Shown one piece after another: positions 5,194-18,834 of a DNA stretch of 18,982 nucleotides (positions within the stretch are counted from its first letter, which is position 1; the number at the start of each line of letters is the position of its first letter). Position numbers and translations under genes: made by a program. Origin of the DNA: Candidatus Zixiibacteriota bacterium (GTDB lineage Bacteria; SM23-81); assembly GCA_030628225.1 (NCBI GenBank), contig DAOVRJ010000009.1, forward strand, positions 1 to 18,982. Reading direction: 5' to 3'. Under the pieces are notes generated by a model. The model searched no databases, was not told the origin of the DNA, and saw only the letters and a list, made by a program, of their open reading frames with translations.

Positions 5194-7569
5194 ATGGCAG
5201 TTGGGTTGAGGAAATGGAAGTCGGACCTGGGGTTGATGGCCCTCCTGTACGCTCTGGTGCTGTTTCTATATCGTGATATCGCCTTTTTGAACAAGATGTT
5301 CGTCTCCGCCGACACCATTGCCCAGGGAGCGGTCTTTGGGAAGTTCGGGTTTGATCAACTGGCCGCCGGTCATTATCCCCTCTGGTATCCCCATATTTTC
5401 TCGGGAATGCCCTTTTTCGCCAGTATGTCCTTCGATGTGTTCGTCTATCCGGCGCGGATCATCCTCCATTATCTGGATCAGTTCGGTTTCCATTTCCTGC
5501 ACTACAAGATCGCCCATTTCTTCATGGGAGGCCTGTTCACCTACCTGCTGATGCGCTCCTACAAACTGGAGAGATTCAGCGCTTTCATATCAGCGGCGGT
5601 GTTCATCTTCAGCCCCATGGTTGCCTCTCTGGAACATGGAAACCGGATCATCACCATCATGTATATTCCGGTAATTTTCTACCTGATCAGAAGACTCTAT
5701 CTCCGCCGGGACCTGACCTCCCTGGCCTGGGCCGGATTGGCCGTTGGCTTCCAGATGATGGCCAACCACATGCAGATCGTCTACTACACTTGGCTGTTCC
5801 TTGGCCTTCACTTCTTCGGTCTGCTGGTGACAGACCTCAGGAAAAAAGTTGGCTTAAAGCGGGTGCTCCAGAGAGGAGGTCTGCTGGCTGGAAGCATGAT
5901 CATCGGCCTGGGCGTAGCTGCCTTCCTTCTGCTTTCAGTCTACGAGTTCACGCCATATTCGGCACGGAGCTCCGGCGATGCCCTGGCCGCCTATAACTAC
6001 GCCACAAATTGGTCCTTGCACCCCAGGGAGATGTTGACCTTCTTCGTCCCCTCCTTCATGGGATTCGGCGGGCAAACCTACTGGGGATATATGCCCTTCA
6101 CTCATTGCCCTAACTATCTGGGGATCGTGGCCCTGTTTCTGGTCGTCTGTGCCTTGATCTTTCGCCGTAGCCGGACAACCATCTTCTTCGCCGGGGCGGG
6201 ATGTCTGGCCATCCTGGTTTCCTTTGGCCGCTTTTTTCCGGTTCTGTACAAGCCCATGTATGCGCTGTTGCCTTTTTTCAGCAAATTTCGAGTGCCGGCC
6301 ATGATCCTGATGCTGTTATTCTTCTGTGTGGCCGTCCTGGCCGGTTTTGGGGTCCAGGCTCTGCTGGAAATGGGCTCGAGCTCGGCCAGCCGAGAGGGAG
6401 TTAAAAAACGGCAGAAGCTCAGCAGATCACTGTTCATTTTAGCCGTGATCCTGGTGTTGGCAGGGATCATGTTTTCCATGGCCAGGGGGCCTATATCCCA
6501 AAGTTTGATGGCCGGTTACGACCGTGTCGATGCTGCCCTGGGCCGCCACCAGGACATCGCTGCACAGCTCAGAGATCAACTGGATGGCCGCAGGTTCGCC
6601 ATGGTCTTCGGGGACATCTGGAAGATGCTCCTCTTTCTGGCTGCCGCCAGCCTGCTGGCGGCCCTGTATCTGGGAAAGAAAGTAAACCGGCGTACCTTCG
6701 TCGGGCTGCTGGCCGTCCTGTTGCTGCTGGATTTCTTCTGGGTGGATCTGGGACTGGTCCATTTTCAGCAGCAGCGCGGATACGAGCGGGTCTATTACCG
6801 TGCCCGTGAGGACGAGATCGTTCGCTTTTTAGAAAAAGATAGCTCCCTGTTTCGCATACTGCCCCTGGACGATCTGAGCTCAAACGAGTATGCTTACTTC
6901 CAGATCAGCTCCGTGGGTGGCTATCATCCGGCCAAGTTGGGCATCTATCAGGAGGTCATGGAGAAGGTGGGCCTGGGCAATCCCAACCTGATAGATCTGC
7001 TGAACGTCAAATATCTTATCACCAAACGGCATATCGACCACCCCCGCTTTGAACGGGTATTGGAGACAGCCTCGGGGGCTGTTTACCGGAATAAAAAGGT
7101 CATGTCCCGGGCCTTCATCGTCAACCAGATGGAGATCTTGGAGGATAAAGAGGAGATCTTTGCTCGTCTGAGTTCCGCGGAGTTTGATCCCCGAGAGACG
7201 GCTATATTGGAGCGCCAGCCTTCCTTCTCCCTGGATCCCGGAGAGGGCGGCGCGGTGCGGGTGGTCAGCTACGGGTGCCAGGAGATCCAGCTGGAGGCCA
7301 GCGTGACCGCGGCCAGTCTCCTGGTACTCAGCGAGATTTACTACCCCGCCGGCTGGAAAGCATATGTGAACGGCCAGCGTACCCAGATATACAAAACCGA
7401 TTATCTGCTGCGGGCCGTCTACCTGCCCGCGGGAGATCACCGGGTCAGCTTTCACTTTCGTCCTTGGACCTTTCCAGCGGGTCTGTGGATCAGCATTCTC
7501 TTTCTCCTGGGTATTATGGTGACTTTGGCTTTCGCTTGGCGGAGAAATCGCCGGGTCCATCGCGGTTGA
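5194..7569 (+). CDS. YfhO-family GT-C type membrane glycosyltransferase
   Basis: A 791-residue polytopic protein. The N-terminus has one helix (about 12-27), then a periplasm-facing loop with VSADTIAQG (D40) and PLWYPHIFSGMPFF, which is the characteristic pattern of YfhO-type GT-C proteins. Roughly ten further hydrophobic segments follow to about residue 510, then a soluble domain rich in beta strands, and a last helix near 765-782 with a basic tail. The ending (LSEIYYPAGWKAYVNG, then YLPAGDHRVSFHF) is also typical of the family. Characterised relatives in Firmicutes use undecaprenyl-phosphate sugars to decorate surface polymers on the outer face of the membrane. It starts three bases after the methyltransferase stop. 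A polyprenol-phosphate donor could come from the GT2 genes at 1-437 or 8510-9223; that link is inferred. Confidence 0.85.
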   Translation: MAVGLRKWKSDLGLMALLYALVLFLYRDIAFLNKMFVSADTIAQGAVFGKFGFDQLAAGHYPLWYPHIFSGMPFFASMSFDVFVYPARIILHYLDQFGFHFLHYKIAHFFMGGLFTYLLMRSYKLERFSAFISAAVFIFSPMVASLEHGNRIITIMYIPVIFYLIRRLYLRRDLTSLAWAGLAVGFQMMANHMQIVYYTWLFLGLHFFGLLVTDLRKKVGLKRVLQRGGLLAGSMIIGLGVAAFLLLSVYEFTPYSARSSGDALAAYNYATNWSLHPREMLTFFVPSFMGFGGQTYWGYMPFTHCPNYLGIVALFLVVCALIFRRSRTTIFFAGAGCLAILVSFGRFFPVLYKPMYALLPFFSKFRVPAMILMLLFFCVAVLAGFGVQALLEMGSSSASREGVKKRQKLSRSLFILAVILVLAGIMFSMARGPISQSLMAGYDRVDAALGRHQDIAAQLRDQLDGRRFAMVFGDIWKMLLFLAAASLLAALYLGKKVNRRTFVGLLAVLLLLDFFWVDLGLVHFQQQRGYERVYYRAREDEIVRFLEKDSSLFRILPLDDLSSNEYAYFQISSVGGYHPAKLGIYQEVMEKVGLGNPNLIDLLNVKYLITKRHIDHPRFERVLETASGAVYRNKKVMSRAFIVNQMEILEDKEEIFARLSSAEFDPRETAILERQPSFSLDPGEGGAVRVVSYGCQEIQLEASVTAASLLVLSEIYYPAGWKAYVNGQRTQIYKTDYLLRAVYLPAGDHRVSFHFRPWTFPAGLWISILFLLGIMVTLAFAWRRNRRVHRG

Positions 7570-7589: not shown

Positions 7590-8513
7590 ATGACCGGCAA
7601 ATCGCAAAAGCCGAAAATTCTGGTTACTGGCTGCAACGGTCTTTTGGGCCAGAAGGTGGTGGCGTTGACCCGGCAACGGTACTGGACGGTGGGTGCCGAT
7701 TTGCAGGATGAGTCCTTGGGTTCGGTTGATGAATATCTGACCATGGATATCAGCAAACGGGAGGCAGTGCTGGACGCCGTGGAGAGGATCTCGCCCGTGG
7801 GCATCGTCAACACGGCTGCCCTGACCAATGTGGATGCCTGTGAGAAAGACAGGGATCTGGCCTGGGCGGTGAATGTGGACGGCGTGAGATTTCTTCTGGA
7901 GGCATGCCAGAGAATAAGCAGCAGCCTGATCCAGATCTCCTCAGACTATGTTTTTGACGGCGAGGATGGTCCCTATGGCGAGGATGCCGCTGCCAACCCC
8001 CTGGGCTTTTACGGGCTGACCAAGCTGGAGAGTGAGCGGGTCCTGGTGGGGAGCCGTTCGCCCTGGGCCGTGGTGAGAACCAATGTGCTCTATGGTTGGG
8101 CCCGGAGCGTGCGGTCCAACTTCGTCCTCTGGGTACGCGCTCAGCTTGCCGCCGGGAAATATGTCCGCACGGCCATCGACCAGTATGGCAACCCCACGCT
8201 GGCCGAGAACCTGGCCCAGGGCATTCTGGCTTTGCTCAGGAGAGGCCAGCAGGGGATATTTCACATCGCCGGCGCGGACTACGTGAGCCGGTGGACATTT
8301 GCTCTGATGATCGCCAGGGTATTCGGTCTCGACCAAAAGCTGATTGCTCCGGTGCTCTCGGCTCATCTCTCCCAGTGGGCGCCGCGGCCCCATTGGGGTG
8401 GGTTGAGGATCGATCGGGCCGCCCGGGAGCTGGGCATCTCAATTCTCGGCGTTCAAGCCGGGCTGAATGCTCTTAAGGAACAGATTCCCCTCGAGGAAAT
8501 GGAGGTGCGGTGA
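7590..8513 (+). CDS. RmlD-like sugar-nucleotide reductase (extended SDR)
   Basis: A 307-residue extended short-chain dehydrogenase. The nucleotide-binding G14-x2-G17-x2-G20 motif sits in LVTGCNGLLGQK, VNTAALTNVDACE is the family's second conserved block, and the active site shows SSDYVFDG (117-124) and Y141-G-L-T-K145. This order matches dTDP-4-dehydrorhamnose reductase and its relatives, which reduce a 4-keto sugar nucleotide with NAD(P)H. No RmlA, RmlB or RmlC partner is present in the window, so dTDP-rhamnose cannot be claimed. ATG 7590 follows GGAGGGG at 7574-7580; the frame is open further upstream inside the YfhO gene, but that would not fit a Rossmann N-terminus. The stop overlaps the next start (GTGA). 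Confidence 0.85.
   Translation: MTGKSQKPKILVTGCNGLLGQKVVALTRQRYWTVGADLQDESLGSVDEYLTMDISKREAVLDAVERISPVGIVNTAALTNVDACEKDRDLAWAVNVDGVRFLLEACQRISSSLIQISSDYVFDGEDGPYGEDAAANPLGFYGLTKLESERVLVGSRSPWAVVRTNVLYGWARSVRSNFVLWVRAQLAAGKYVRTAIDQYGNPTLAENLAQGILALLRRGQQGIFHIAGADYVSRWTFALMIARVFGLDQKLIAPVLSAHLSQWAPRPHWGGLRIDRAARELGISILGVQAGLNALKEQIPLEEMEVR
8501..8506 (+). promoter_or_regulatory. Ribosome binding site for the Dpm1-like gene
   Basis: GGAGGT ends three bases before GTG 8510 and lies inside the end of the reductase gene. It supports the unusual GTG start and coupled translation. Confidence 0.55.
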
Positions 8514-9223
8514 AATCACTGATAATTATTCCCACATACAAAGAGAAGGAGAATATCGAGCGCCTTGTCCGGACGCTGTTTGATCTGGGTCAGGAGATCG
8601 AGATCCTGATCGTGGATGATAATTCCCCGGATGGAACCGGCGACACAGCGGACCGGCTGGTAGCCCAGGATAGCCGCATTCATGTGTTGCACCGGCCAGG
8701 CAAGCTGGGTCTGGGGTCAGCCTACATTCAGGGTTTCAAATTCGCCCTGGATCACGGCTACGATCTGATCTTCGAGATGGATGCCGACTTTTCTCACGAT
8801 CCCAGCTACATCCCGCATTTTCTGGAGAAGATCAAAGAGTGCGACCTGGTCTTGGGATCTCGCTATGTGCAGGGAGTAAACGTTATCAACTGGCCCATGT
8901 CCCGGCTGTTGTTGAGCTATTTTGCCAATTTCTATACCAGGATCATCACCGGCCTGCCCATTAAGGATGCCACTGGCGGATTCAAATGCTATCGTCGCAG
9001 CGTGTTACAGGCCATTGACCTGGATAATGTGAAATCGGATGGCTACTCTTTTCAGATCGAGATGACCTTTAAATGCTGGAAGAAGGGCTTCCGGATCACC
9101 GAGATCCCGATCATTTTTTACGAGCGTCAGAGGGGACATTCCAAGATGTCCAAGAAGATCGTGCGCGAGGCGGTAGTGATGGTGTGGCGCCTGAGGCTGC
9201 TGAGCCTGTTGGGGAGAATCTGA
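8510..9223 (+). CDS. Dpm1-like polyprenol-phosphate sugar synthase
   Basis: A 237-residue GT2 enzyme of the dolichol-phosphate mannosyltransferase type. It opens with LIIIPTYKEKENIERLV, has ILIVDDNSPDGTG at 33-44, the metal-binding D91-A-D93 in FEMDADFSHDP, LGSRYV, and KDATGGFKCYRR, then EIPIIFYERQRGHSKMS near the end. It ends without the C-terminal helix pair of the gene at 1-437, so it resembles the single-domain, soluble Dpm1 class. It should make a polyprenyl-phosphate sugar (mannose or glucose in known members) as donor for a GT-C enzyme such as the YfhO protein. The start is GTG 8510, supported by GGAGGT at 8501-8506 and by the four-base GTGA overlap with the reductase. Confidence 0.88.
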   Translation: MKSLIIIPTYKEKENIERLVRTLFDLGQEIEILIVDDNSPDGTGDTADRLVAQDSRIHVLHRPGKLGLGSAYIQGFKFALDHGYDLIFEMDADFSHDPSYIPHFLEKIKECDLVLGSRYVQGVNVINWPMSRLLLSYFANFYTRIITGLPIKDATGGFKCYRRSVLQAIDLDNVKSDGYSFQIEMTFKCWKKGFRITEIPIIFYERQRGHSKMSKKIVREAVVMVWRLRLLSLLGRI

Positions 9224-9226
9224 ACG

Positions 9227-11515
9227 ATGGGTTTCGCGGGGCAAAACGGGAGTACGCTGAGCCGGGCGAGGGTTACCAAGGACGTTTCGGTGATCGTCGT
9301 CAACTACAACGTGCGGGATTTGCTGGAACAGTGCCTGCGCTCTATCCACAGGGCCTGCGAGCACCTAGATGCCGAGGTGCTGGTGGTGGACAATGCCTCC
9401 CGGGACTCCAGCTCGCAGATGGTTAAGGACAAGTTCCCCTGGGTTCAGCTGATCCAAAACCAGGTCAATGTCGGTTTCTCCAGGGCCAATAATCAGGCTC
9501 TGGAGAGGGCCCGGGGCCGGTACTTTTTACTGATCAACCCGGATACCCTGGCCCGGGAGGACACCGTGCAGACCATGATGGACTTCATGGATGCCCACCC
9601 GGAGACCGGGGCCGCGGGCTGTAAAATTCTCAATCCGGATGGCACACTGCAGTTGTCCTGCCGGCGCAGCTTTCCCACGCCCTGGGTGGCTCTCTCCAAG
9701 ATCTTAGGCTTAGGGCGGATTTTCCCCCGCAGCCGGGTTTTCGGCAAGTACAACCTCACCTACTTGAACCCCGATCAAACGGTGGAGGTGGATGCTCTCT
9801 CCGGTTCCTTTATGTTCCTGCGTCGGGAGACCCTGAAAGAGATAGGGCTATTGGACGAGCGGTTCTTTATGTATGGGGAGGATCTAGACCTGTGCTATCG
9901 CGTCAGGAAGGCCGGCTGGAAGATCTATTATGTGCCCGCCACCCAGATTATTCACTACAAGGGCCAGAGCACCGAGTCCAGCGTCAGCACCGTTCTTGAT
10001 TTCTACCGGGCCATGTATATCTTCGTCAGAAAGCATCTCCGTCGTAGATATTTTTTCTTTCTGCACTGGTTTCTCACCCTGGGCATCGCCATAAGGGCTG
10101 GTATCTCATTCGTGGGCAGAGTGATTCGGCGGACCTTCCCCGTTTTTCTGGACCTGCTTCTGGTGAATATGGCTCTGCTGGCGGCCATCGTTTTTCGCTT
10201 TAGTGGCCTCATCCCGTTGCCTCCCTTCAACAACTACATCTCCTATCTGATCATCCATGGTGTCTGCACCCTGATCTGGCTGGGTAGCTTCTGGGCTCTG
10301 GGGCTGTACGACCGCCGGCGATACTCCACTGTACAGGCCTTTTGGGCTGTGACCCTGGGGTTTTTGCTCATCTCCACGCTCACCTATTTCAAACAGGAGT
10401 ACGCCTTTTCCCGTATCGCCATCTTGACCACCTATCTGCTGAATCTGGTCCTGATTTCAGGATGGCGTTTGCTGTTTCGACTGATGGCCAAGACGTCCGT
10501 GGGACGGGCTCTGCCTTTCAAACGGGCCCTTATCGTGGGGGCTAATGAGGCCGGCAGGGCAATTATGGTCCGGCTGAGGGGTCGACTGGATCTGGGCTCT
10601 CGAGTGGTGGGTTTCGTGAGCAGCGGAGTTGCTGAACAGTTGGAGTCCCTGGATGGGCTGCCGGTCCTGGGGCGGGTCGATGATCTGCCCCGGATCGTGG
10701 AGCGGGAGAAGATCGAGGAGGTCATCGTTACCACCTCCTCCAGCTCCTATGCCTCCATCTTGGGGATGATGGCCAGCTGTGCGCCATCTCGGGTTGATTT
10801 CAAGCTGGTGCCCAGTCCCTATGAGGTGATGATCGGTGGGGCTCAGATCGATCGCATCGATGATATCCCCATGGTGGAAATACGCTACAGGCCCCTGCTG
10901 GGTTGGAACCGGGTCCTGAAAAGGACCACCGATCTGATCGTTTCCGCCACTTTATTGATGGTTGCCCTGCCCTTGGTCATTGCCTGGGAGATACTGCGCA
11001 AGTGCCGGCCGGATAGATATCGCACCGTTTGGCGCACCGTCAGCGGCAGGGAAAACCGGTCAATTGTTCTGGCAACGCACCAGATTGTGGTTCCAGACCC
11101 GGCTAAGTCCGACCGGCTCAGGCTTTTTCACTATCGGTGGGCTCTGGACAAGATGCCCTTCCTATGGGCCGTTTTCCACGGCGGCCTCAGCCTGGTGGGT
11201 CCGGAGCCTTTGCAGATGGGCAGGGCGAAGGATACTATCCTCAAGCCCGGATTGACCGGTTTCGTTCAGATCCATGTTAAGGAAGGTCTTACTCCGGAAG
11301 AGAAAGAGGAGTATGAGATCTTTTATCTGCGCCATCAATCCCTGATGTTGGATACTCAGATATTGCTAAGAGCGTTCTGGGGTTTGATCAGGGGTGCCGG
11401 GGGCCTGCGGACATCGTCGGCGTTGGCAGCAGGGTCTCTGCGGTCGAAGGCAAAGTCTCATCTTTCAATTGACGACGAAAGGGTGGAGAATGAACGAGTT
11501 CGTTCTCGATTTTGA
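9227..11515 (+). CDS. Fusion of GT2 glycosyltransferase and WcaJ-like phosphoglycosyl transferase
   Basis: A 762-residue two-enzyme protein. Residues about 18-270 are a rhamnosyltransferase-like GT2 domain: [14 protein letters not shown] (53-58), NPDT (104-107) and [10 protein letters not shown] (216-225). Residues about 305-420 hold four helices as in WcaJ/WbaP proteins. A Rossmann-like CoA_binding_3 domain follows (GANEAGR at 438-444), then a bacterial sugar transferase domain (about 560-725) starting [13 protein letters not shown] and including LSLVGPEP and [11 protein letters not shown]. Normal members transfer a hexose-1-phosphate to undecaprenyl phosphate and so start glycan assembly. 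Here the catalytic Asp-Glu pair reads D641-K642, and the usual FRQxRxG ... KFRSM stretch is unrecognisable, so catalytic activity is doubtful. The 3' end overlaps accA by 26 nt. GGGGAG at 9211-9216 supports ATG 9227. Confidence 0.82.
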
Positions 11516-12446
11516 GCGTCCCCTCATAGAGCTGGAAAAGAAGATCCAGGACATGAAGGATTTCAGCTCCGGCGAGGACATCGAGCTGTCCCAGGAGATC
11601 AAACGGCTGGAGAAGCGCGCCGAGAAGCTACGCGCTGAGATCTTCGCCAACCTGACGCCCTGGCAGAGGGTTCGGCTGGCCAGGCACCCCAAGAGGCCCT
11701 ATACACTGGATTATATCCGGCTGATCATGGAGGAGTTTGTGGAGCTTCACGGCGACAGGCGCTATGCCGATGACCGGGCCATCGTCGCCGGACTGGCCAA
11801 GCTTGCTGGCCGACCGGTGGTGGTGGTGGGCCATCAGAAGGGGCGAGACACAAAGGAGAACCTGCGACGCAACTTCGGCATGGCCCATCCCGAGGGATAT
11901 CGCAAGGCCCTCAGGCTTTTCCGTCTGGCCGCCAAATTTCATCGTCCGGTGATTGTCTTTATCGATACCATGGGTGCTTACCCGGGCATCGGGGCCGAGG
12001 AGAGGGGGCAGGCGGAGGCCATTGCCACAAATTTGAAGGTTATGTCCCATCTGCCCGTTCCCATCATCGTCTCCATCATCGGTGAGGGTGCCAGCGGTGG
12101 AGCTCTGGGCATTGGGGTTGGGGATCGGATCCTGATGCTGGAGAACGCATGGTATTCGGTGATCTCGCCGGAGGGCTGTGCGGCCATTCTATGGCGGGAT
12201 CGGGCCAAGGCGCCGCAGGCGGCCGAGGCGCTGAAGCTGACCGCTCAGGATCTGATGAAGCTGGGGATCATCGACGTCATCGTGCCGGAGCCGCTGGGCG
12301 GTGCCCACCGGGATTTTAAGGCTGTGGCCCAGGTCCTTAAGGGCAAAATCTTAGAGTCGCTGGAGGAGATCTCCAGTATCCCCCCAGAGCGACTGGTTGC
12401 CCAGCGCATAAATAAGTTCGCCCGCATGGGCAGTATCGTCGAATAG
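11490..12446 (+). CDS. accA: Acetyl-CoA carboxylase carboxyltransferase subunit alpha
   Basis: 318 residues, essentially the length of E. coli AccA (319). The protein pairs with AccD to form the carboxyltransferase that moves CO2 from carboxybiotin to acetyl-CoA, giving malonyl-CoA for fatty acid synthesis in the cytoplasm. Diagnostic pieces are the N-terminal coiled region ([11 protein letters not shown] and [11 protein letters not shown]), [72 protein letters not shown] and [13 protein letters not shown] 11490 sits right after GGTGGAG and inside the end of the fusion gene, so translation is probably coupled. Alternative upstream in-frame starts would only add residues encoded in another gene. 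AccD, AccB and AccC are not in the window. Confidence 0.97.
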
Positions 12447-12469
12447 GTTTTTGGGGAAGGAGAGTGAAG

Positions 12470-12640
12470 ATGATCGACCAGGAGTTGCTGGATATTTTGG
12501 CCTGTCCCCTTTGCCGGGGAAGTCTGGAGTATGATAAGAAGAATGAGAAGCTGATCTGCCATGCTTGTAAGCTGAGGTTCCGCATCGAGGATGACATTCC
12601 CGTGATGCTGCTGGATGAGGCGGAGAAATTCGCCGAGTAA
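12470..12640 (+). CDS. Trm112-like small zinc-ribbon protein
   Basis: A 56-residue protein, too short for most size filters. It opens MIDQELLDILACPLCRG and has two CxxC pairs (C12-x2-C15 and C33-x2-C36), then FRIEDDIPVMLLDEAE. This is the Trm112/YcaR pattern: a small zinc-ribbon whose eukaryotic and archaeal members activate SAM methyltransferases, while bacterial ones (YcaR in E. coli, next to lpxK and kdsB) are poorly defined. GGGGAAGGAGAG at 12453-12464 is a strong ribosome binding region. It lies 23 nt after accA and 11 nt before mreC. The partner in this organism is unknown; the zinc-ribbon methyltransferase at 4291 already has its own ribbon, so it is not an obvious client. Confidence 0.88.
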   Translation: MIDQELLDILACPLCRGSLEYDKKNEKLICHACKLRFRIEDDIPVMLLDEAEKFAE

Positions 12641-12651
12641 AAGGAGAAGCG

Positions 12652-13467
12652 ATGTCCCGATTGACGTTCTGGACGGAGAGGTCCCGGCGGCTTATCGTGC
12701 TCTCCTGCGCCGTGATCATCTCCACGGTATTGCTTTCCATGGGGCATAGCCAGAAGGCATTTGTGGTCAGAGCTCTGACCATCAGTATTTTAGCTCCGGT
12801 GCAAAAGGGCATCTCCCTGGCCAGCCAGTTCTGGGACGTCTATTTTCAAAATCGCTCTCTGCGGCAGTTGAATACAGAGCTTTCCCTGGAAAACCAGATG
12901 CTCCGGGAGGCCCAGCTGGAAAACCTTCGCCTGCGGCAACTGCTCTCCTTCCGTGAACGCCAGAAGCTGACCTCCATCTTATTGGCCGAGGTGATTGCCA
13001 GGGAGCCGGCCCGGCAGATGAACTCCATTCTCATCGGCAGTGGCTCTCATTTGGGGGTGAAGCAGAACATGTCCGTGGTTACCTCTCAAGGGCTGGTGGG
13101 CCGAGTTGTGGAGGTCTATCCCAGCACCGCCATCGTCCAGGTTCTGCTGGATCGCAACTGCCCGGTCAGCGCCATGGTTCAAAGGAGCCGCGTCTCAGGG
13201 ATTCTGGTCTATGAGGGAGGCGCTTCCTTTCGCCTGAAGAATGTCCCCTGGCGTATGGATGTGGTGGCCGGTGACATGGTCATCTCCTCCGGTCTGGGGG
13301 GAGTATTTCCCAAGGGGTTGCAGCTGGGCAGGGTGGGCCAGGTTTTCTCCAATGAGCGGGAGCTGTTTAAGGAGATCGTGGTGCAGCCCTCGGTGGATTT
13401 CAACAGCCTGGAGGAGGTTTTCGTTATCCTGAACACTCCCCAGGACACGGAGGAAGGGGAAAAATGA
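12652..13467 (+). CDS. mreC: Rod shape-determining protein MreC
   Basis: 271 residues, a usual size for MreC. One N-terminal membrane helix lies at about 13-30. It is followed by a heptad-rich coiled coil near 66-100 (rich in Leu, Glu and Arg) and a periplasmic beta-barrel domain with SQGLVGRVVEVYPSTA, VQVLLDRNCPVSAMVQRS, GDMVISSGLGGVFPKGLQLG and the end VEEVFVIL-like LEEVFVIL. MreC scaffolds the elongasome and controls PBP2-RodA activity. AAGGAG at 12641-12646 precedes ATG 12652. The stop overlaps mreD by ATGA. The gene just upstream is not mreB, which is the usual neighbour. Confidence 0.96.
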   Translation: MSRLTFWTERSRRLIVLSCAVIISTVLLSMGHSQKAFVVRALTISILAPVQKGISLASQFWDVYFQNRSLRQLNTELSLENQMLREAQLENLRLRQLLSFRERQKLTSILLAEVIAREPARQMNSILIGSGSHLGVKQNMSVVTSQGLVGRVVEVYPSTAIVQVLLDRNCPVSAMVQRSRVSGILVYEGGASFRLKNVPWRMDVVAGDMVISSGLGGVFPKGLQLGRVGQVFSNERELFKEIVVQPSVDFNSLEEVFVILNTPQDTEEGEK

Positions 13468-13958
13468 GGGTTCTGCGCTATATCCTGTTGGCCGCATTGG
13501 CCTTGATTCTGCAGAGCACTCTGCTGAAGCTGGTGGCCGTCGGGCAGATCCAGCCCGACCTGGTTCTGCTGGTCCTTTTCTACGTGGCTTTGTCGGAGGG
13601 ATCTTACGGCGCGACCATAGCCGGATTCTGCAGCGGTCTGGTTCAGGATGTCTACGCCCCCCAGACCCTGGGCCTCAACGCTCTCTGTAAATCCCTGATC
13701 GGCTTTGGGCTTGGATACTGTCAGCGAGGTGTCTTTGTGGATAGCCTGGTCGCCCGCAGCCTGATATTGTTCGCCGCCGTCTTGATCCATGATATTCTGT
13801 ATTTTCTGATATCCTCCTGGCCCGAGGTGGGCCGGGGCTTTGGCCTGGTGGTCAGATTTGGTCTTCCCACAGCCCTGTATACAGCTCTTCTGGGTTACGT
13901 GGTCTTCTACCTGATCCGCAGAGAAAAGCGGATCCAACCTCTTCAGGAATCGCCATGA
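13464..13958 (+). CDS. mreD: Rod shape-determining membrane protein MreD
   Basis: 164 residues with about five hydrophobic helices, typical of MreD. The N-terminal LRYILLAALALILQSTLL, the IQPDLVLLVLFYVAL stretch and GFCSGLVQDVYAPQTLGLNAL are family hallmarks (the last matches the GLxxDxxxxxxLGxxA pattern). MreD is an inner-membrane partner of MreC in the elongation complex. Both ends overlap neighbouring genes by four bases (ATGA), so mreC, mreD and mrdA should be co-translated. Identification rests on pattern and position together, since MreD sequences vary widely. Confidence 0.93.
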   Translation: MRVLRYILLAALALILQSTLLKLVAVGQIQPDLVLLVLFYVALSEGSYGATIAGFCSGLVQDVYAPQTLGLNALCKSLIGFGLGYCQRGVFVDSLVARSLILFAAVLIHDILYFLISSWPEVGRGFGLVVRFGLPTALYTALLGYVVFYLIRREKRIQPLQESP

Positions 13959-15733
13959 TCTCCGGTCGTCCTCTCAGCAAGCGGGGCGAGCTTATTCCCG
14001 CTATAGTGGTGATCGTTCTGTTTTCCGTGCTGGCCATTCGCCTTTTTGACCTTCAGGTGGTGCGCGCCAGCGACTACCGGCGGCTTTCGGAGGAGAACAG
14101 AATCCGGTTGATCCCGGTGGATGCTCCCCGGGGGCACATTCTGGATCGCCATGGAGAGGTGCTGGTCTGCAATCGTCCATCTTACGTGGTCTCCATTCTC
14201 CCCTTCATGCTGAAGGAGATGGAGCTGACCATCCAGAGACTGAGCCGGATTTTGAACGTAGACCCCCAGGAAATCGTAGAGAAGGTAAGTCAGAGAAGAT
14301 GGAATAGATTTGCGCCCGTAAAGATCAAAAGGGACATCGATTTTAAAACTCTGGCCATTATCCAGGAGCACAAGCTGGATCTCCCGGGGGTCATCTACCA
14401 GGTGGAACCCCGGCGGGAGTATCTGCAAGGGCAGCTGGCCGCCCACCTGTTGGGCACCGTGGGGGAGATCTCTCCCCGGGAGCTGGAGACCCACAGGGGC
14501 CACAGATACCGCTATGGGTCTCTCATCGGCAAGGCAGGGCTGGAGAGACAATACGAGCCATTTTTGCGGGGTGAAGATGGCGTACAATATGTGGAGGTCA
14601 GCGCCGTTGGCCGGGAGATCGGGCCTCTGGCCGATCGTCCTCCTGCAGAGGTCAAGCCGGGAAGCGATCTGATCTTGACCATAGATCTGGCCCTGCAGAA
14701 AGTTGCCGAGGAGGCTCTGTCGGACACGGTCTGCGGAGCTGTGGTGGCCATAGACCCGACCAGCGGAGAGGTGCTGGCCATGGTGAGCCGCCCCACCTTT
14801 GACCCCAATCTCTTCAGCACCGTGGTGCCGGAGAGCACCTGGCGTCAGCTGAACGAGGATCCGGGCCATCCGCTGTTGAACCGGGCTATCCAGTGCTCCT
14901 ACCCTCCGGCATCGACCATGAAGCTGGTCACGGCTGGCGCCGGTCTGGAGTACAAGGTGATCGGCCAGTACACCCGTTTTGCACCATGCAGCGGAGCCTA
15001 TAAGTACGGAAACCGCTGGTTTCGATGCTGGCGGCCAGAGGGCCATGGCTCCCTGGCCCTGGTGGGTGCAGTGGCCCAGTCATGCGATGTCTATTTCTAT
15101 CAGCTGGGCTTGAAAATAGGACTGGAGCGCTGGAGCGAGTTCGCCGCAGATTGTGGCTTCGGGGTTCCGCTTGGTCTGGATTTGCCCAACGAGACCGGCG
15201 GGCTTATCCCTGATCAGGCTTTTTTCGATCGCCGGTATGGCAAGAGGAAATGGAGCCCGGGGGTTCTGCTGAATCTGTCCATCGGCCAGGGCGAGAACCT
15301 GGTGACGCCCCTCCAAATGGCCTGCTTCACTGCCGCCATAGCTAACGGGGGAACCATCTACCGGCCTTTCCTGGTCAGGGAAATTCGCAGCGTGGCCGGG
15401 AAATCGCTGCCCAGAGATCCGCAGATAGTGGGTCATCTGCCCCTTTCTGCCGATAATTTGAAGATTATCAAAAGGTCTCTTAGGGCGGTGGTTGGCGACA
15501 TCAAGGGCACCGGCAGGCAGGCCGCGATCGAGGGGGTGGCGGTGGCCGGCAAGACGGGGACGGCTCAGAATCCTCACGGCGAGGATCACGCCTGGTTCAT
15601 CGGATTTGCTCCTCTGGACGATCCCCGGATAGCCATCGCTGTTTTAGTGGAGCTCGGAGGTCACGGGGGTTCCGTGGCAGCACCCATAGCCGGCAAGGTG
15701 ATGGAAGCCTATTTGAAAAGAGGTGGCCTGTAG
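13955..15733 (+). CDS. mrdA: Penicillin-binding protein 2 (elongation transpeptidase)
   Basis: 592 residues, a class B PBP. It has an N-terminal helix (about 14-30), then the pedestal domain starting APRGHILDRHGEVL (57-70), and the transpeptidase domain from about 235. Catalytic motifs are S320-T-M-K323 (preceded by YPPA where PG is usual), S376-C-D378 and K533-T-G-T536. It cross-links new peptidoglycan in side-wall growth with RodA. C345, C358, H364 and C377 match the spacing of the zinc site that I recall for E. coli PBP2, with Cys in place of two Asp ligands. It overlaps mreD by ATGA and shares one base with rodA (TAGTG). Confidence 0.96.
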   Translation: MISGRPLSKRGELIPAIVVIVLFSVLAIRLFDLQVVRASDYRRLSEENRIRLIPVDAPRGHILDRHGEVLVCNRPSYVVSILPFMLKEMELTIQRLSRILNVDPQEIVEKVSQRRWNRFAPVKIKRDIDFKTLAIIQEHKLDLPGVIYQVEPRREYLQGQLAAHLLGTVGEISPRELETHRGHRYRYGSLIGKAGLERQYEPFLRGEDGVQYVEVSAVGREIGPLADRPPAEVKPGSDLILTIDLALQKVAEEALSDTVCGAVVAIDPTSGEVLAMVSRPTFDPNLFSTVVPESTWRQLNEDPGHPLLNRAIQCSYPPASTMKLVTAGAGLEYKVIGQYTRFAPCSGAYKYGNRWFRCWRPEGHGSLALVGAVAQSCDVYFYQLGLKIGLERWSEFAADCGFGVPLGLDLPNETGGLIPDQAFFDRRYGKRKWSPGVLLNLSIGQGENLVTPLQMACFTAAIANGGTIYRPFLVREIRSVAGKSLPRDPQIVGHLPLSADNLKIIKRSLRAVVGDIKGTGRQAAIEGVAVAGKTGTAQNPHGEDHAWFIGFAPLDDPRIAIAVLVELGGHGGSVAAPIAGKVMEAYLKRGGL

Positions 15734-16956
15734 TGTTCAGCGGCGCCAGCAGAAATGCCGATCTGTTCCTGGTGGTCGTGGTGGTTCTCCTCTGTGGAGT
15801 AGGGGTGCTGACCATCTTCAGCACCCTCCAGGGGAGCGAGGTCTCCATGGCCCGGAACCTGCATCTAAAACAGCTTTTCTGGTTTGGCCTGGGATTTTTG
15901 GCCATGATTCTGGTGGCTGTCATTCCCTACAAGTTTTACTACGCTTTGTGCCCTATCATCTACGTCATCTCCCTTCTTTCCCTGGTCTTGCTCTTTTGGT
16001 TCGGCAGCGGGCAAGGCGGAGCGAATCGGTGGTTCAATTTAGGATCGTTCTACTTTCAGCCGGCGGAGCTGGTCAAGGTGACCACCATCTTCGTCCTGGC
16101 CCGATATCTATCCGGCCGCAAGGTCGCCGCCGGGGGCATCAAACCGTTTCTTCCCGCCCTTCTGTTGGTGGTTCTTCCTTTTATCCTGATCATCAAGCAG
16201 CCCGATCTGGGCACATCTATGGTTTTTATGGCCATCCTGGTGGCCATGCTGTACCATGCCGGGATGAAACCAGCCAACCTGTTTTTGCTTCTCTCCCCGG
16301 CCATCAGCCTGATCTGTGCCTTTCACCTGATCTCCTGGATGATTTTCATCCTGGTGGTTATCCTGATGCTCTTTCTGTCCCGGCCCCGGTTCTTGACCAC
16401 AGCGGCCATTTTTCTGACCAACTTCGCCGTGGGCATCATCACCCCCATCATGTGGAGAGGACTGCACGAGTATCAGCAGAAGAGGATTCTGGTCTTCCTC
16501 GATCAGGGGCGCGACCCTCTGGGGGCGGGCTATCAGGTGATCCAGTCCAAGGTGGCTTTGGGTTCGGGTGGATTTTTAGGCAAGGGCTTTCTTCACGGTA
16601 CTCAGACGAAGCTGGCCTTTCTGCCGGCCCAGCATACCGATTTTATCTTCTCCTCTTTTGGGGAGCAGTTTGGTTTTTTGGGTAGCATGATCATCCTGTT
16701 TCTTTTTCTGATACTGATTCTTCGGGGAGTGAAGATCGCCCAGATGGCCAGAAACAAGTTCGCCGGATTGGTGGCCCAGGGGGTCACCGCCGTCATTTTT
16801 TTCCACGTTTTCGTCAACGTGGGGGTTTCCCTGGGAATTATGCCGGTCACCGGATTACCCCTTCCGTTCATGAGCTACGGCGGCTCATCCCTGATCACCA
16901 ATATGATCCTGGTGGGCCTGTTGCTGAATGTCCGCTTTCGCTGGCAGGAATACTGA
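15733..16956 (+). CDS. rodA: RodA, SEDS peptidoglycan glycosyltransferase
   Basis: 407 residues with about ten membrane helices, SEDS family (RodA/FtsW/SpoVE). It polymerises lipid II into glycan strands in partnership with PBP2, encoded directly upstream. Visible hallmarks: NRWFNLGSFYFQPAELVK (98-115), QPDLGTS, FLDQGRDPLGAGYQ with D261 at the position of the catalytic Asp of RodA, QSKVALGSGGFLGKGFLHGTQ, LPAQHTDFIF, and GLPLPFMSYGGSS near the end. The start is GTG 15733, whose first base is the last base of the mrdA stop codon. I prefer RodA to FtsW because of the operon and the HGTQxxLxFLPxxHTDFIF segment. Confidence 0.96.
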   Translation: MFSGASRNADLFLVVVVVLLCGVGVLTIFSTLQGSEVSMARNLHLKQLFWFGLGFLAMILVAVIPYKFYYALCPIIYVISLLSLVLLFWFGSGQGGANRWFNLGSFYFQPAELVKVTTIFVLARYLSGRKVAAGGIKPFLPALLLVVLPFILIIKQPDLGTSMVFMAILVAMLYHAGMKPANLFLLLSPAISLICAFHLISWMIFILVVILMLFLSRPRFLTTAAIFLTNFAVGIITPIMWRGLHEYQQKRILVFLDQGRDPLGAGYQVIQSKVALGSGGFLGKGFLHGTQTKLAFLPAQHTDFIFSSFGEQFGFLGSMIILFLFLILILRGVKIAQMARNKFAGLVAQGVTAVIFFHVFVNVGVSLGIMPVTGLPLPFMSYGGSSLITNMILVGLLLNVRFRWQEY

Positions 16957-16962
16957 TCGGCC

Positions 16963-16968
16963 GGAGGT
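16963..16968 (+). promoter_or_regulatory. Ribosome binding site fixing the lgt start
   Basis: GGAGGT lies four bases before GTG 16973. It favours this start over the in-frame ATG at 16928, which lies inside rodA and would add 15 residues that do not fit an Lgt N-terminus. Confidence 0.6.
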
Positions 16969-16972
16969 ACCT

Positions 16973-17797
16973 GTGCACCCGATTTTATTTAGAATCGGCC
17001 CCTTCGCCCTGCGCTCTTACGGCCTGATGCTGGCCCTCTCCTTTTTTCTAGGCATTCTTTTGGCCGGCAGGAGGTTAAAGAGAATGGGCGGGGATCAGAC
17101 CAAGATGATCGACCTGGCCGTAGTGATCATCCTGGCCTCGGTCATCGGCTCCCGTCTTTTCTACGTGGTCTTTCACTGGAACGAGTTTTCCGGGCATTTC
17201 CTGGACATCATCAATCCCTTTAACAATGCCCAGGGGATTGGTATCGCCGGCCTGTCCATGGACGGGGGGGTGTTTCTGGCCATTTTGTGTGGCCTGCTTT
17301 TCCTGCGGTTGAGGAAACAGCCCATATTGCTGACCCTGGATGCTCTGGCTCCTTCCTTTGCCCTGGGTATTTTCCTGACACGTATGGGATGTTTTTTGAA
17401 CGGCTGTTGTTTCGGCAAACCCTGCTGGGGGAGCCTGGGCGTGATTTTCCCGGCGGACTGCCCGGCGGGATGGATATATCCACAAACCCCGCTCCATCCG
17501 GCGCAACTGTACAACTCCTTGGGGGGATTGATCATGTTTGGTCTGTTGCTCTGGTTGGAGAGACAGAGGACCTTTTCCGGATTTACCTTTTTCTTGGCCC
17601 TGATCTTTTATGGCCTGCTACGTTTGGTCGTGGATTTTTTCCGTTACTTCCAGGAGGGCGAGATTCTGTTTCGTCCGGGGGGTGTGCCCATCACCGGTAA
17701 CCAGGCAGTCAGCCTGGCGGCCATGGTTCTGGCTCTGATTCTGTTTCTCTGGTTTCGCTCGCACAGGTCCTTTTCCAGAGGGCGCGGATCGACCTGA
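16973..17797 (+). CDS. lgt: Prolipoprotein diacylglyceryl transferase
   Basis: 274 residues with about seven helices. Lgt moves a diacylglyceryl group from phosphatidylglycerol to the lipobox Cys of prolipoproteins at the cytoplasmic membrane. The N-terminus HPILFRIGPFALRSYGLML is diagnostic. The signature appears in the Cys-rich form TRMGCFLNGCCFGKPCWG (136-153), where R137 matches the essential Arg of the E. coli GRxGNFxN motif, and LHPAQLYNS (174-182) is the usual HPTQLYES. The position of E. coli His103 (in FHGGL) is Asp97 (MDGGV), which is unusual. The start is GTG 16973, 16 nt after rodA. It is the last gene of the tightly packed run. Confidence 0.93.
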   Translation: MHPILFRIGPFALRSYGLMLALSFFLGILLAGRRLKRMGGDQTKMIDLAVVIILASVIGSRLFYVVFHWNEFSGHFLDIINPFNNAQGIGIAGLSMDGGVFLAILCGLLFLRLRKQPILLTLDALAPSFALGIFLTRMGCFLNGCCFGKPCWGSLGVIFPADCPAGWIYPQTPLHPAQLYNSLGGLIMFGLLLWLERQRTFSGFTFFLALIFYGLLRLVVDFFRYFQEGEILFRPGGVPITGNQAVSLAAMVLALILFLWFRSHRSFSRGRGST

Positions 17798-17958
17798 CCG
17801 GGAACTGGTGGTTCCATTGTTTCCGTGCTTTTTTTCCGTGTTCTTCTTCCGTGATTATTTTTTTCCTCTTTGCATCGATAGCATGGGTGAGTGGTTCCAT
17901 TGTTTCCGTGCTTTTTTTCCGTGTTTTCCTTCCATGATTTCCTCTTTGCCTTGACAAC
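17798..17958 (+). other. Non-coding spacer between lgt and comF
   Basis: This 161-base spacer is the longest non-coding stretch in the window. It is pyrimidine-rich on the + strand and is made almost entirely of the direct repeat described separately. I see no tRNA, no convincing promoter and no classical terminator in it: the small GGAAC/GTTCC hairpin at 17801-17815 is not followed closely by a T run. Confidence 0.7.
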
Positions 17959-17966
17959 ATGGGTGG
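17808..17966 (+). repeat. 83-bp imperfect tandem direct repeat with nested 13-bp TTCCGTG units
   Basis: Copy 1 spans 17808-17890 and copy 2 spans 17891-17966. The first 35 bases of the two are identical; after that there are substitutions and a 7-base deletion in copy 2. Inside copy 1 the heptamer TTCCGTG occurs at 17821, 17834 and 17847; in copy 2 it occurs at 17904 and 17917, with TTCCATG at 17930. Spacing is exactly 13 bases in both. Each copy ends in CATGGGTG, and in copy 2 this contains the first possible comF start codon, so the repeat looks like a duplication of the comF leader. Confidence 0.9.
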
Positions 17967-18834
17967 CGGGATGGAAAGTTTGTCCGGTTCGCTAAAAGGG
18001 CTGCTCAGTGACCTGCTGGATTTTATCTATCCACCTCACTGCGGAGTCTGTGGCCGGGGACTGATCGGGGAGCAGAGGGTCGTCTGCGACGCCTGCTGGC
18101 AGGACCTGGGGGTCATCGCCGAGCCCTTCTGCCAGAAGTGCGGTATTCCCCTGTCCAACCCAGATCTTCTCTGCGCAACATGTAAGGCACGCCGCCACCT
18201 CTTCTCCTTTGCCCGTTCACACGGCCTCTTCGATGAGACCTTCCAGAAGATCGTCCATCTGTTCAAATATCGCCGAATGCGCAGCCTGGCCCGGCCTCTG
18301 GCCGATCTCATGGCCGGGACCATGGGAGCAGATCCGCGTTTCGCCGGCATGCAGGCCTTGGTCCCTGTGCCCCTGCACACGGTCAAGTGTCGTGCCCGCG
18401 GCTATAACCAGAGCGATCTATTGGCCAGGGAGCTTTCCCGGGCCATCCAGCTGCCCGTTCTCGAGCGAGCCCTGGTCCGCACGGTCAATACCCAATCTCA
18501 ATCGAAGTTAAACCTGAGCGAGCGGGCGACGAACGTGCGCAATGCCTTTCGGGTCAAGGATCCCGGGCAGGTGCGGGACAAGCGGATCGTGGTGGTGGAT
18601 GACGTACTGACCACGGGTTCCACGGTCGATGCCTGTGCCGCCGCCCTTATGCAGGAGGGAGCCGGGGAAGTTTGTGTGATCACCCTGGCTCGGGCGGTAG
18701 AACCCGGAAAGGCAGCAAAAGCCGAGACTAGAGACTCGAGACTCGGGAAAAGCCGGGGATCGGGATCCGGGAATCGGGGGCAAAGGCCGAGACTGGAGAC
18801 TAGAGACTCGTTAAAAGAAAAAACCGATCCTTGA
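17959..18834 (+). CDS. comF: ComF family phosphoribosyltransferase-like protein
   Basis: 291 residues from ATG 17959; ATG 17971 is an equally possible start, with a weak GGTGG before it. The N-terminus has a zinc-ribbon of CxxC pairs (C28/C31, C43/C46, C58/C61, C72/C75). The central part has LFKYRRM, VPVPLHTVKCRARGYNQSDLLA (LVPVPLHxxxxxxRGFNQ pattern), and LNLSERATNVRNAF. The PRPP-binding loop is IVVVDDVLTTGSTVDA (210-225). ComF proteins act in the cytoplasm in DNA uptake during natural transformation, through a mechanism that is not settled. The core ends near residue 249; the last 40 residues are Arg/Ser/Lys-rich, contain ETRDS twice (256-260 and 280-284), and are encoded by simple DNA repeats, so they are probably not functional. 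Confidence 0.92.
   Translation: MGGGMESLSGSLKGLLSDLLDFIYPPHCGVCGRGLIGEQRVVCDACWQDLGVIAEPFCQKCGIPLSNPDLLCATCKARRHLFSFARSHGLFDETFQKIVHLFKYRRMRSLARPLADLMAGTMGADPRFAGMQALVPVPLHTVKCRARGYNQSDLLARELSRAIQLPVLERALVRTVNTQSQSKLNLSERATNVRNAFRVKDPGQVRDKRIVVVDDVLTTGSTVDACAAALMQEGAGEVCVITLARAVEPGKAAKAETRDSRLGKSRGSGSGNRGQRPRLETRDSLKEKTDP
18717..18810 (+). repeat. Simple GAGACT-type repeats in the 3' end of comF
   Basis: Two related blocks, 18717-18746 and 18782-18810, share a core of the form AAAG-x-CCGAGACT followed by further GAGACT units (some joined as ACTCGAGACTC). Between them lies GGGATCGGGA-like sequence at 18755-18780. The whole is in the comF frame and encodes the odd C-terminal tail. This type of low-complexity DNA is normally found between genes. 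Confidence 0.8.

Follow-up and report, generated by a model that had tools for sequence, protein, structure and literature searches.

GT2 glycosyltransferases fused to a probably inactive large monotopic phosphoglycosyl transferase in several phyla

The fusion gene and its neighbourhood

The window, by which we mean the whole 18,982-nucleotide stretch analysed (Candidatus Zixiibacteriota contig DAOVRJ010000009.1), holds a single intact ORF with an ATG start in which a family 2 glycosyltransferase (GT2) domain is followed by the layout of a large monotopic phosphoglycosyl transferase (Lg-PGT), namely a four-helix bundle and a PF13727-type domain ahead of the PGT core (Table 1). A previous, sequence-only reading had placed a GT2 domain, four helices, a Rossmann domain and a sugar-transferase domain in one frame, and the ORF, the Pfam matches and the structure model all agree with it. 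The Pfam search of the protein matched Glycos_transf_2 (PF00535) at residues 21-171 (6e-23), CoA_binding_3 at residues 364-529 (4e-18) and Bac_transf (PF02397) at residues 565-720 (4e-18, above cut-off); TIGR03025 and TIGR03023 also matched at residues 307-589, both below their cut-offs.

Table 1. Features of the fusion gene and its neighbours, with positions in the window
Feature	Position	Strand	Remarks
RmlD-like reductase (PF04321)	7590..8513	+	Neighbour conserved in 10 loci
Dolichyl-phosphate-sugar-synthase-like GT2 (DPM1-like)	8510..9223	+	Directly upstream; conserved neighbour
GT2 :: four-TM :: Rossmann :: pseudo-PGT fusion	9227..11515	+	762 aa
GT2 (GT-A) domain, residues 19-250	9281..9976	+	Active site intact: D55, NPD 104-106, DE 210-211, ED.D 218-221, H243
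Four long helices, residues 273-421, Lg-PGT membrane bundle	10043..10489	+	Profile match and model
Rossmann domain (CoA_binding_3 / Lg-PGT 'DUF'), residues ~430-529	10514..10813	+	Pfam and model
Segment 530-552, Rossmann-PGT junction	10814..10882	+	Low-confidence strands in model
Pseudo-PGT domain, residues 565-720 (Bac_transf)	10919..11386	+	Pfam, alignment, fold comparison
K565-R566, equivalent to PglC Lys7-Arg8	10919..10924	+	Re-entrant-helix motif, kept; alignment to PglC
D641-K642 at the catalytic Asp-Glu dyad site (PglC D93-E94)	11147..11152	+	Alignment to PglC
GPEP 658-661 replacing GPRP; E660 at PglC R112	11198..11209	+	Alignment to PglC
D709, equivalent to PglC Asp169	11351..11353	+	Salt-bridge partner of Lys7, kept; alignment to PglC
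accA	11490..12446	+	Conserved downstream neighbour; 26-nt overlap with fusion 3' end

The GT2 half carries the features expected of its family, that is, a GT-A fold, an NPD metal site and an acidic base region. Those of the PGT superfamily fold are likewise present in the second half (the Bac_transf match, the PGT fold, K565, R566, P582 and D709), but those of an active PGT are not. The Asp-Glu dyad is D641-K642 (codons gac, 11147-11149, and aag, 11150-11152), the positions of PglC K59, M63, R88 and R112 are occupied by V614, H618, Y636 and E660, and the mobile loop is shortened or missing. Judged from its residues, the chain would thus have no second active site and would not combine two catalytic domains as Bi-PGTs do. 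Judged by where it lies, the segment between the Rossmann and PGT domains (residues 530-552) may be the counterpart of the WbaP domain-swap hairpin.

The fusion gene starts 3 nt past the stop codon of its upstream neighbour, and the order dolichyl-phosphate-sugar-synthase-like GT2, fusion, accA recurs in 15 of 71 loci, with the RmlD-like gene upstream in 10. The window genome has at least three other Bac_transf genes, whose family scores are far stronger than that of the fusion. Near the DPM1-like gene, positions 5194-7569 encode a YfhO-like membrane protein, and the YfhO-like and DPM1-like proteins show weak matches to the streptococcal protein-glycosylation families PgfM (PgfM1/PgfM2) and PgfS. 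Downstream, positions 11490-18834 hold accA and then a match to MreC (PF04085), followed, by reading of the translations, by mreD, a penicillin-binding protein, rodA, lgt and comF genes; on that reading, a cell-shape cluster lies immediately downstream of the glycan genes.

Loss of the active site across the fusion family

Homologues were sought by a scan over GTDB species genomes, and the best 80 of 451 relatives were retained. Their loci, most of them from metagenome-assembled genomes, yielded 75 ORFs in which a GT2 half and a Rossmann half share one reading frame, from Zixibacteria, KSB1, Deferribacteres, Marinimicrobia, Ignavibacteria, Balneolota/Rhodothermota, Bacteroidetes and the Fibrobacter group (Chitinivibrionales). 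The PGT domains of 69 fusions were set against those of 25 stand-alone Lg-PGTs in an alignment to Campylobacter PglC, with the roles of PglC residues taken from previous studies (PMC6133551, PMC10519829, PMC12550135). The alignment puts D641-K642 at D93/E94 and finds neither an FRQ nor a KFRSM motif in the window protein, both as the sequence-only reading had it. The SLVGPEP motif, which that reading took to survive, has in fact lost the Arg of GPRP (PglC R112, present in 25/25 canonical relatives), which is Glu here and is gone family-wide.

The same loss runs through the whole set. Glu is found at the E94 position in 0/69 fusions and Asp at the D93 position in 3/69 (the window protein, its homologue in Zixibacteria SM23_81 and that in L008, a duplicate of the SM23_81 genome), as against 25/25 stand-alone Lg-PGTs in both cases. 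Arg at the R88 position persists in 5/69 fusions versus 25/25, and neither M63 nor R112, each kept in 25/25 stand-alone proteins, occurs among the residues listed for the 69 fusion domains. The fusion PGT domains also lack KFRSM, FRQ and the greater part of the mobile loop. The scaffold positions are, by contrast, kept (K7 69/69, R8 66/69, P24 52/69, G104 69/69, D169 69/69); in PglC, Lys7, Arg8, the Ser-Pro pair and Asp169 are determinants of topology and fold (PMC6133551). This pattern of catalytic loss and scaffold retention is repeated in another 29 fusions, all but a few of which belong to a single different phylum, and in 14 from another group, and no Asp-Glu pair stands at the dyad site in the printed sequences of these 29 and 14. 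In the GT2 half, D55 is conserved in 71/71 sequences, and NPD, DE, E218/D219/D221 and H243 in 74/74.

Comparison of the window protein with its SM23_81 homologue, in which synonymous sites are near saturation and dN/dS ratios are accordingly rough, gave 82% identity and a dN/dS of 0.05 for the GT2, 76% and 0.11 for the Rossmann domain, and 61% and 0.15 for the PGT remnant overall. Within that remnant, the core (residues 636-720) is 74% identical at saturated synonymous sites and the former substrate loop (residues 590-632) only 39.5%. As far as these two sequences can be read, the scaffold is under strong constraint and the substrate loop under little.

A sequencing error or single mutation behind the Asp-Lys pair is ruled out by the 74%-identical Zixibacteria SM23_81 homologue, which carries it too. 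Close homologues with Asp-Glu, which would have made the change a private one, were looked for, and none was found among the examined homologues of the window's fusion lineage. On the question of whether Lys642 is conserved with the fusion, Asp-Lys is confined to the Zixibacteria sub-lineage, the conserved feature being the loss of the active site. The relevant unit is a multi-phylum family, not an Asp-Lys change in one protein.

Structure models

The model of the whole protein (mean pLDDT 82, pTM 0.66) found WbaP (8t53) as its best Foldseek match, and the GT2 domain matched 6p61 at Z 23.5. Since the search with the whole model was filled by GT2 matches, the PGT domain was folded separately (pLDDT 85.7). 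The resulting model matched WbaP at Z 17.9 (154 residues, 2.8 Å) and PglC at Z 16.2 (165 residues, 3.3 Å), with no match above Z 3 beyond these two and the next, unrelated, at Z 3.0; the alignment underlying the model included canonical PGTs, a bias towards a fold of the PGT kind. In this comparison of matched ranges, the domain model resembles both WbaP and PglC, and the fold appears to have been kept while the active site was lost.

Distribution, origin and erosion

At a presence threshold of E<=1e-60 or 1e-70, a fusion match occurs, mostly as one copy, in 23/23 near-complete genomes of one phylum (that of G077), 46/46 of a second (that of G048) and 38/43 of a third (that of G057). ORFs with a usual length of ~700 aa are present in 59/59 genomes of one phylum and in most of two others. 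The cultured Gracilimonas mengyeensis (L069) carries the full-length form. In the window's own phylum, the window genome (G000) and G001 have a match, and G002 and G003 have none at this threshold.

Chloroflexota have the two halves as separate genes, a GT2 of this kind standing immediately ahead of an Lg-PGT. In a quick tree, a branch with SH-aLRT 90 divides the Lg-PGT halves of the fusions from stand-alone Lg-PGTs, which is consistent with a single origin of the main fusion lineage. In another quick tree, 25 of the 28 dead fusions fall in the clade that holds the query. Three more distant GT2::Lg-PGT fusions in which the dyad is absent (L160 in G072, L162 in G138, L164 in G102) do not sit cleanly inside the main clade.

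Four other GT2::Lg-PGT fusions (L317, L318, L320 and L322) retain intact D-E, KFR(S/T)M and GPRPER motifs in genomes that also carry a match to the main lineage. In the latter tree, their Lg-PGT halves group with the stand-alone proteins, which makes them a separate fusion. That fusion itself kills the PGT is ruled out by these intact dyads, some in the same genomes, and is also opposed by those of a GT4 fusion (L028) and a WecA/MraY-like fusion (L041_2). L319 (G218:C7:53161-55356) stands in tandem with L322 (50796-53024), whose Asp-Glu is intact, and has Glu-Lys at the dyad and KFRVK replacing KFRSM; it is apparently an independent dyad loss in progress, a change of the same kind. In L041 (1525-4008, 827 aa), a canonical Lg-PGT with an intact dyad is fused to a WecA/MraY-like polytopic domain and, by reading of the sequence, two kinds of PGT share one chain.

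Within the main lineage, the middle of the PGT domain is deleted in Ignavibacteria, Marinimicrobia and Bacteroidota members, and the PGT is missing altogether in Chitinivibrionales (543 aa). Prevotella oral taxon 299 (L148:4043-5236) encodes a 397-aa GT2 of the fusion family with a short tail only; this gene lies near recR, as does its counterpart in a Saprospiraceae locus (L097). In bacterium SM23_31, a lone GT2 (L106:4882-5826) stands shortly ahead of accA, as if the whole PGT half had been lost with synteny kept.

Proposed role and alternative explanations

We consider it likely that the fusion consists of a family 2 glycosyltransferase tethered to the membrane by an Lg-PGT that has lost its catalytic function. 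The PGT half would be inactive in the transferase sense and would act as a membrane platform or scaffold for an active GT2. The sequence-only reading had offered loss of activity, with the domain anchoring or organising the GT2, as the first of two alternatives, and the alignments argue for it, with the catalytic set lost but the scaffold residues and the GT2 site conserved. Neighbouring genes for a GT2 and an Lg-PGT, which Chloroflexota still keep apart, would have merged into one ORF, with the PGT active site lost at or near the base of the fusion lineage. The GT2 domain would do the chemistry, most likely placing a sugar (presumed, like the acceptor) onto a polyprenol-linked acceptor at the cytoplasmic face, and the four helices, the Rossmann domain and the pseudo-PGT with its re-entrant helix would hold it at the membrane surface; dimerisation or nucleotide sensing may have been inherited from Lg-PGTs. 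The RmlD neighbour and the rhamnosyltransferase-like matches of the GT2 together suggest dTDP-rhamnose as a candidate donor, which we offer as a lead only.

A special form of this platform role, whose probability overlaps with that of the explanation above, is that the pseudo-PGT partners an active Lg-PGT in a heterodimer formed via the Rossmann/hairpin interface, coupling priming to the addition of the next sugar. In Lg-PGTs, a hairpin of the Rossmann domain mediates dimerisation (PMC10942596), and a canonical Lg-PGT gene lies close by on the same strand in 33/71 loci; these are mostly from Balneolota, however, with none nearby in the Zixibacteria, KSB1 and Marinimicrobia loci examined, and such a partnership seems to us unlikely.

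Counting against the need for a platform everywhere are the Bacteroidota members with the PGT middle cut, the absence of the PGT in Chitinivibrionales and the Prevotella GT2 with its short tail. Given such truncations, part of the PGT domain could be a decaying relic. That the entire PGT half is an evolutionary relic in decay, with no role and the GT2 alone mattering, would fit this stepwise erosion and the lone GT2 ahead of accA in SM23_31, but we hold it to be rather improbable in the face of the ~700-aa ORFs retained across phyla, the near-invariant equivalents of Lys7, Arg8 and Asp169, and the identity of the PGT core despite saturated synonymous divergence.

We give little weight to a further idea, that the pseudo-PGT is a repurposed lipid-carrier module which, at the membrane surface, would hold a sugar linked to polyprenol or offer it to both the GT2 and its DPM1-like neighbour, in a core glycosylation pathway common to the carrier phyla and possibly at the Man-Rha core step of Bacteroidota-type protein O-glycosylation. 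The Bacteroidota O-glycan core is Man-Rha, and a 2025 review calls the core machinery unidentified (PMC12871550), and a link of the fusion to this system is attractive. Enrichment of a D-S/T-type motif in exported proteins is the pattern described for Bacteroidota O-glycosylation. By a crude home-made exported/cytosolic rule, the D-[ST]-[AILMVT] motif stood at 1.30x in exported and 0.83x in cytosolic proteins of the window genome, and at 2.07x in exported proteins of G002, a genome of the same phylum with no fusion detected, with no cytosolic enrichment. These values gave no support for the link, the fusion-less genome being the higher; of the controls, that from Prevotella was weak and that from E. 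coli of insufficient size.

The second alternative of the sequence-only reading, a PGT still active by a changed mechanism with the Asp nucleophile kept, Lys in place of Glu and a charge swap with E660, is highly improbable: D641 is kept and E94 to K occurs together with R112 to E/D in the window protein and SM23_81, but the Asp is absent from nearly all other members, the uracil- and UndP-binding residues (K59, M63, F43, R88, R112) are gone and the mobile loop is cut.

Significance and comparison with known systems

If the fusion is indeed a GT2 on a dead Lg-PGT platform, the monotopic PGT superfamily would have a pseudoenzyme branch that is no rare accident, the same dead domain having been retained in several phyla and being close to universal in two or more of them. 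The label of polyprenyl glycosylphosphotransferase is easily given to genes of this type, and they would then be counted in error among the initiators of pathways. These sequences also tell structural PGT residues apart from catalytic ones and draw attention to a conserved pair of glycan genes, the dolichyl-phosphate-sugar-synthase-like gene and the GT2 fusion. Literature searches for inactive or pseudoenzyme PGTs returned no description of the family, although an earlier mention in a superfamily network paper (PNAS 2021, e2018289118) is possible.

Among known systems, the fusion shares with Lg-PGTs (WbaP, WcaJ; TIGR03025, PF13727 and PF02397) the order of four helices, CoA_binding_3-type Rossmann domain and PGT fold; unlike them, it adds an N-terminal GT2, lacks the Asp-Glu dyad, the GPRP Arg, KFRSM and FRQ, and has its mobile loop cut. 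Bi-PGTs, described as a functional domain fused to a PGT catalytic domain (PMC10942596), resemble it in joining another functional domain to a PGT but differ in that the PGT domain of the fusion is without an active site. With the small monotopic PglC (8e37, 8g1n) it has in common the fold and the re-entrant-helix residues Lys7, Arg8, Pro24 and Asp169, whereas the compared catalytic and substrate residues are lost, except for D641 at D93. The GT2 half is similar in GT-A fold and sequence to rhamnosyltransferase-type GT2 proteins (TIGR01556, RmlT, WrtF), from which it differs in scoring below the NCBIfam cut-offs and in being fused to a pseudo-PGT half.
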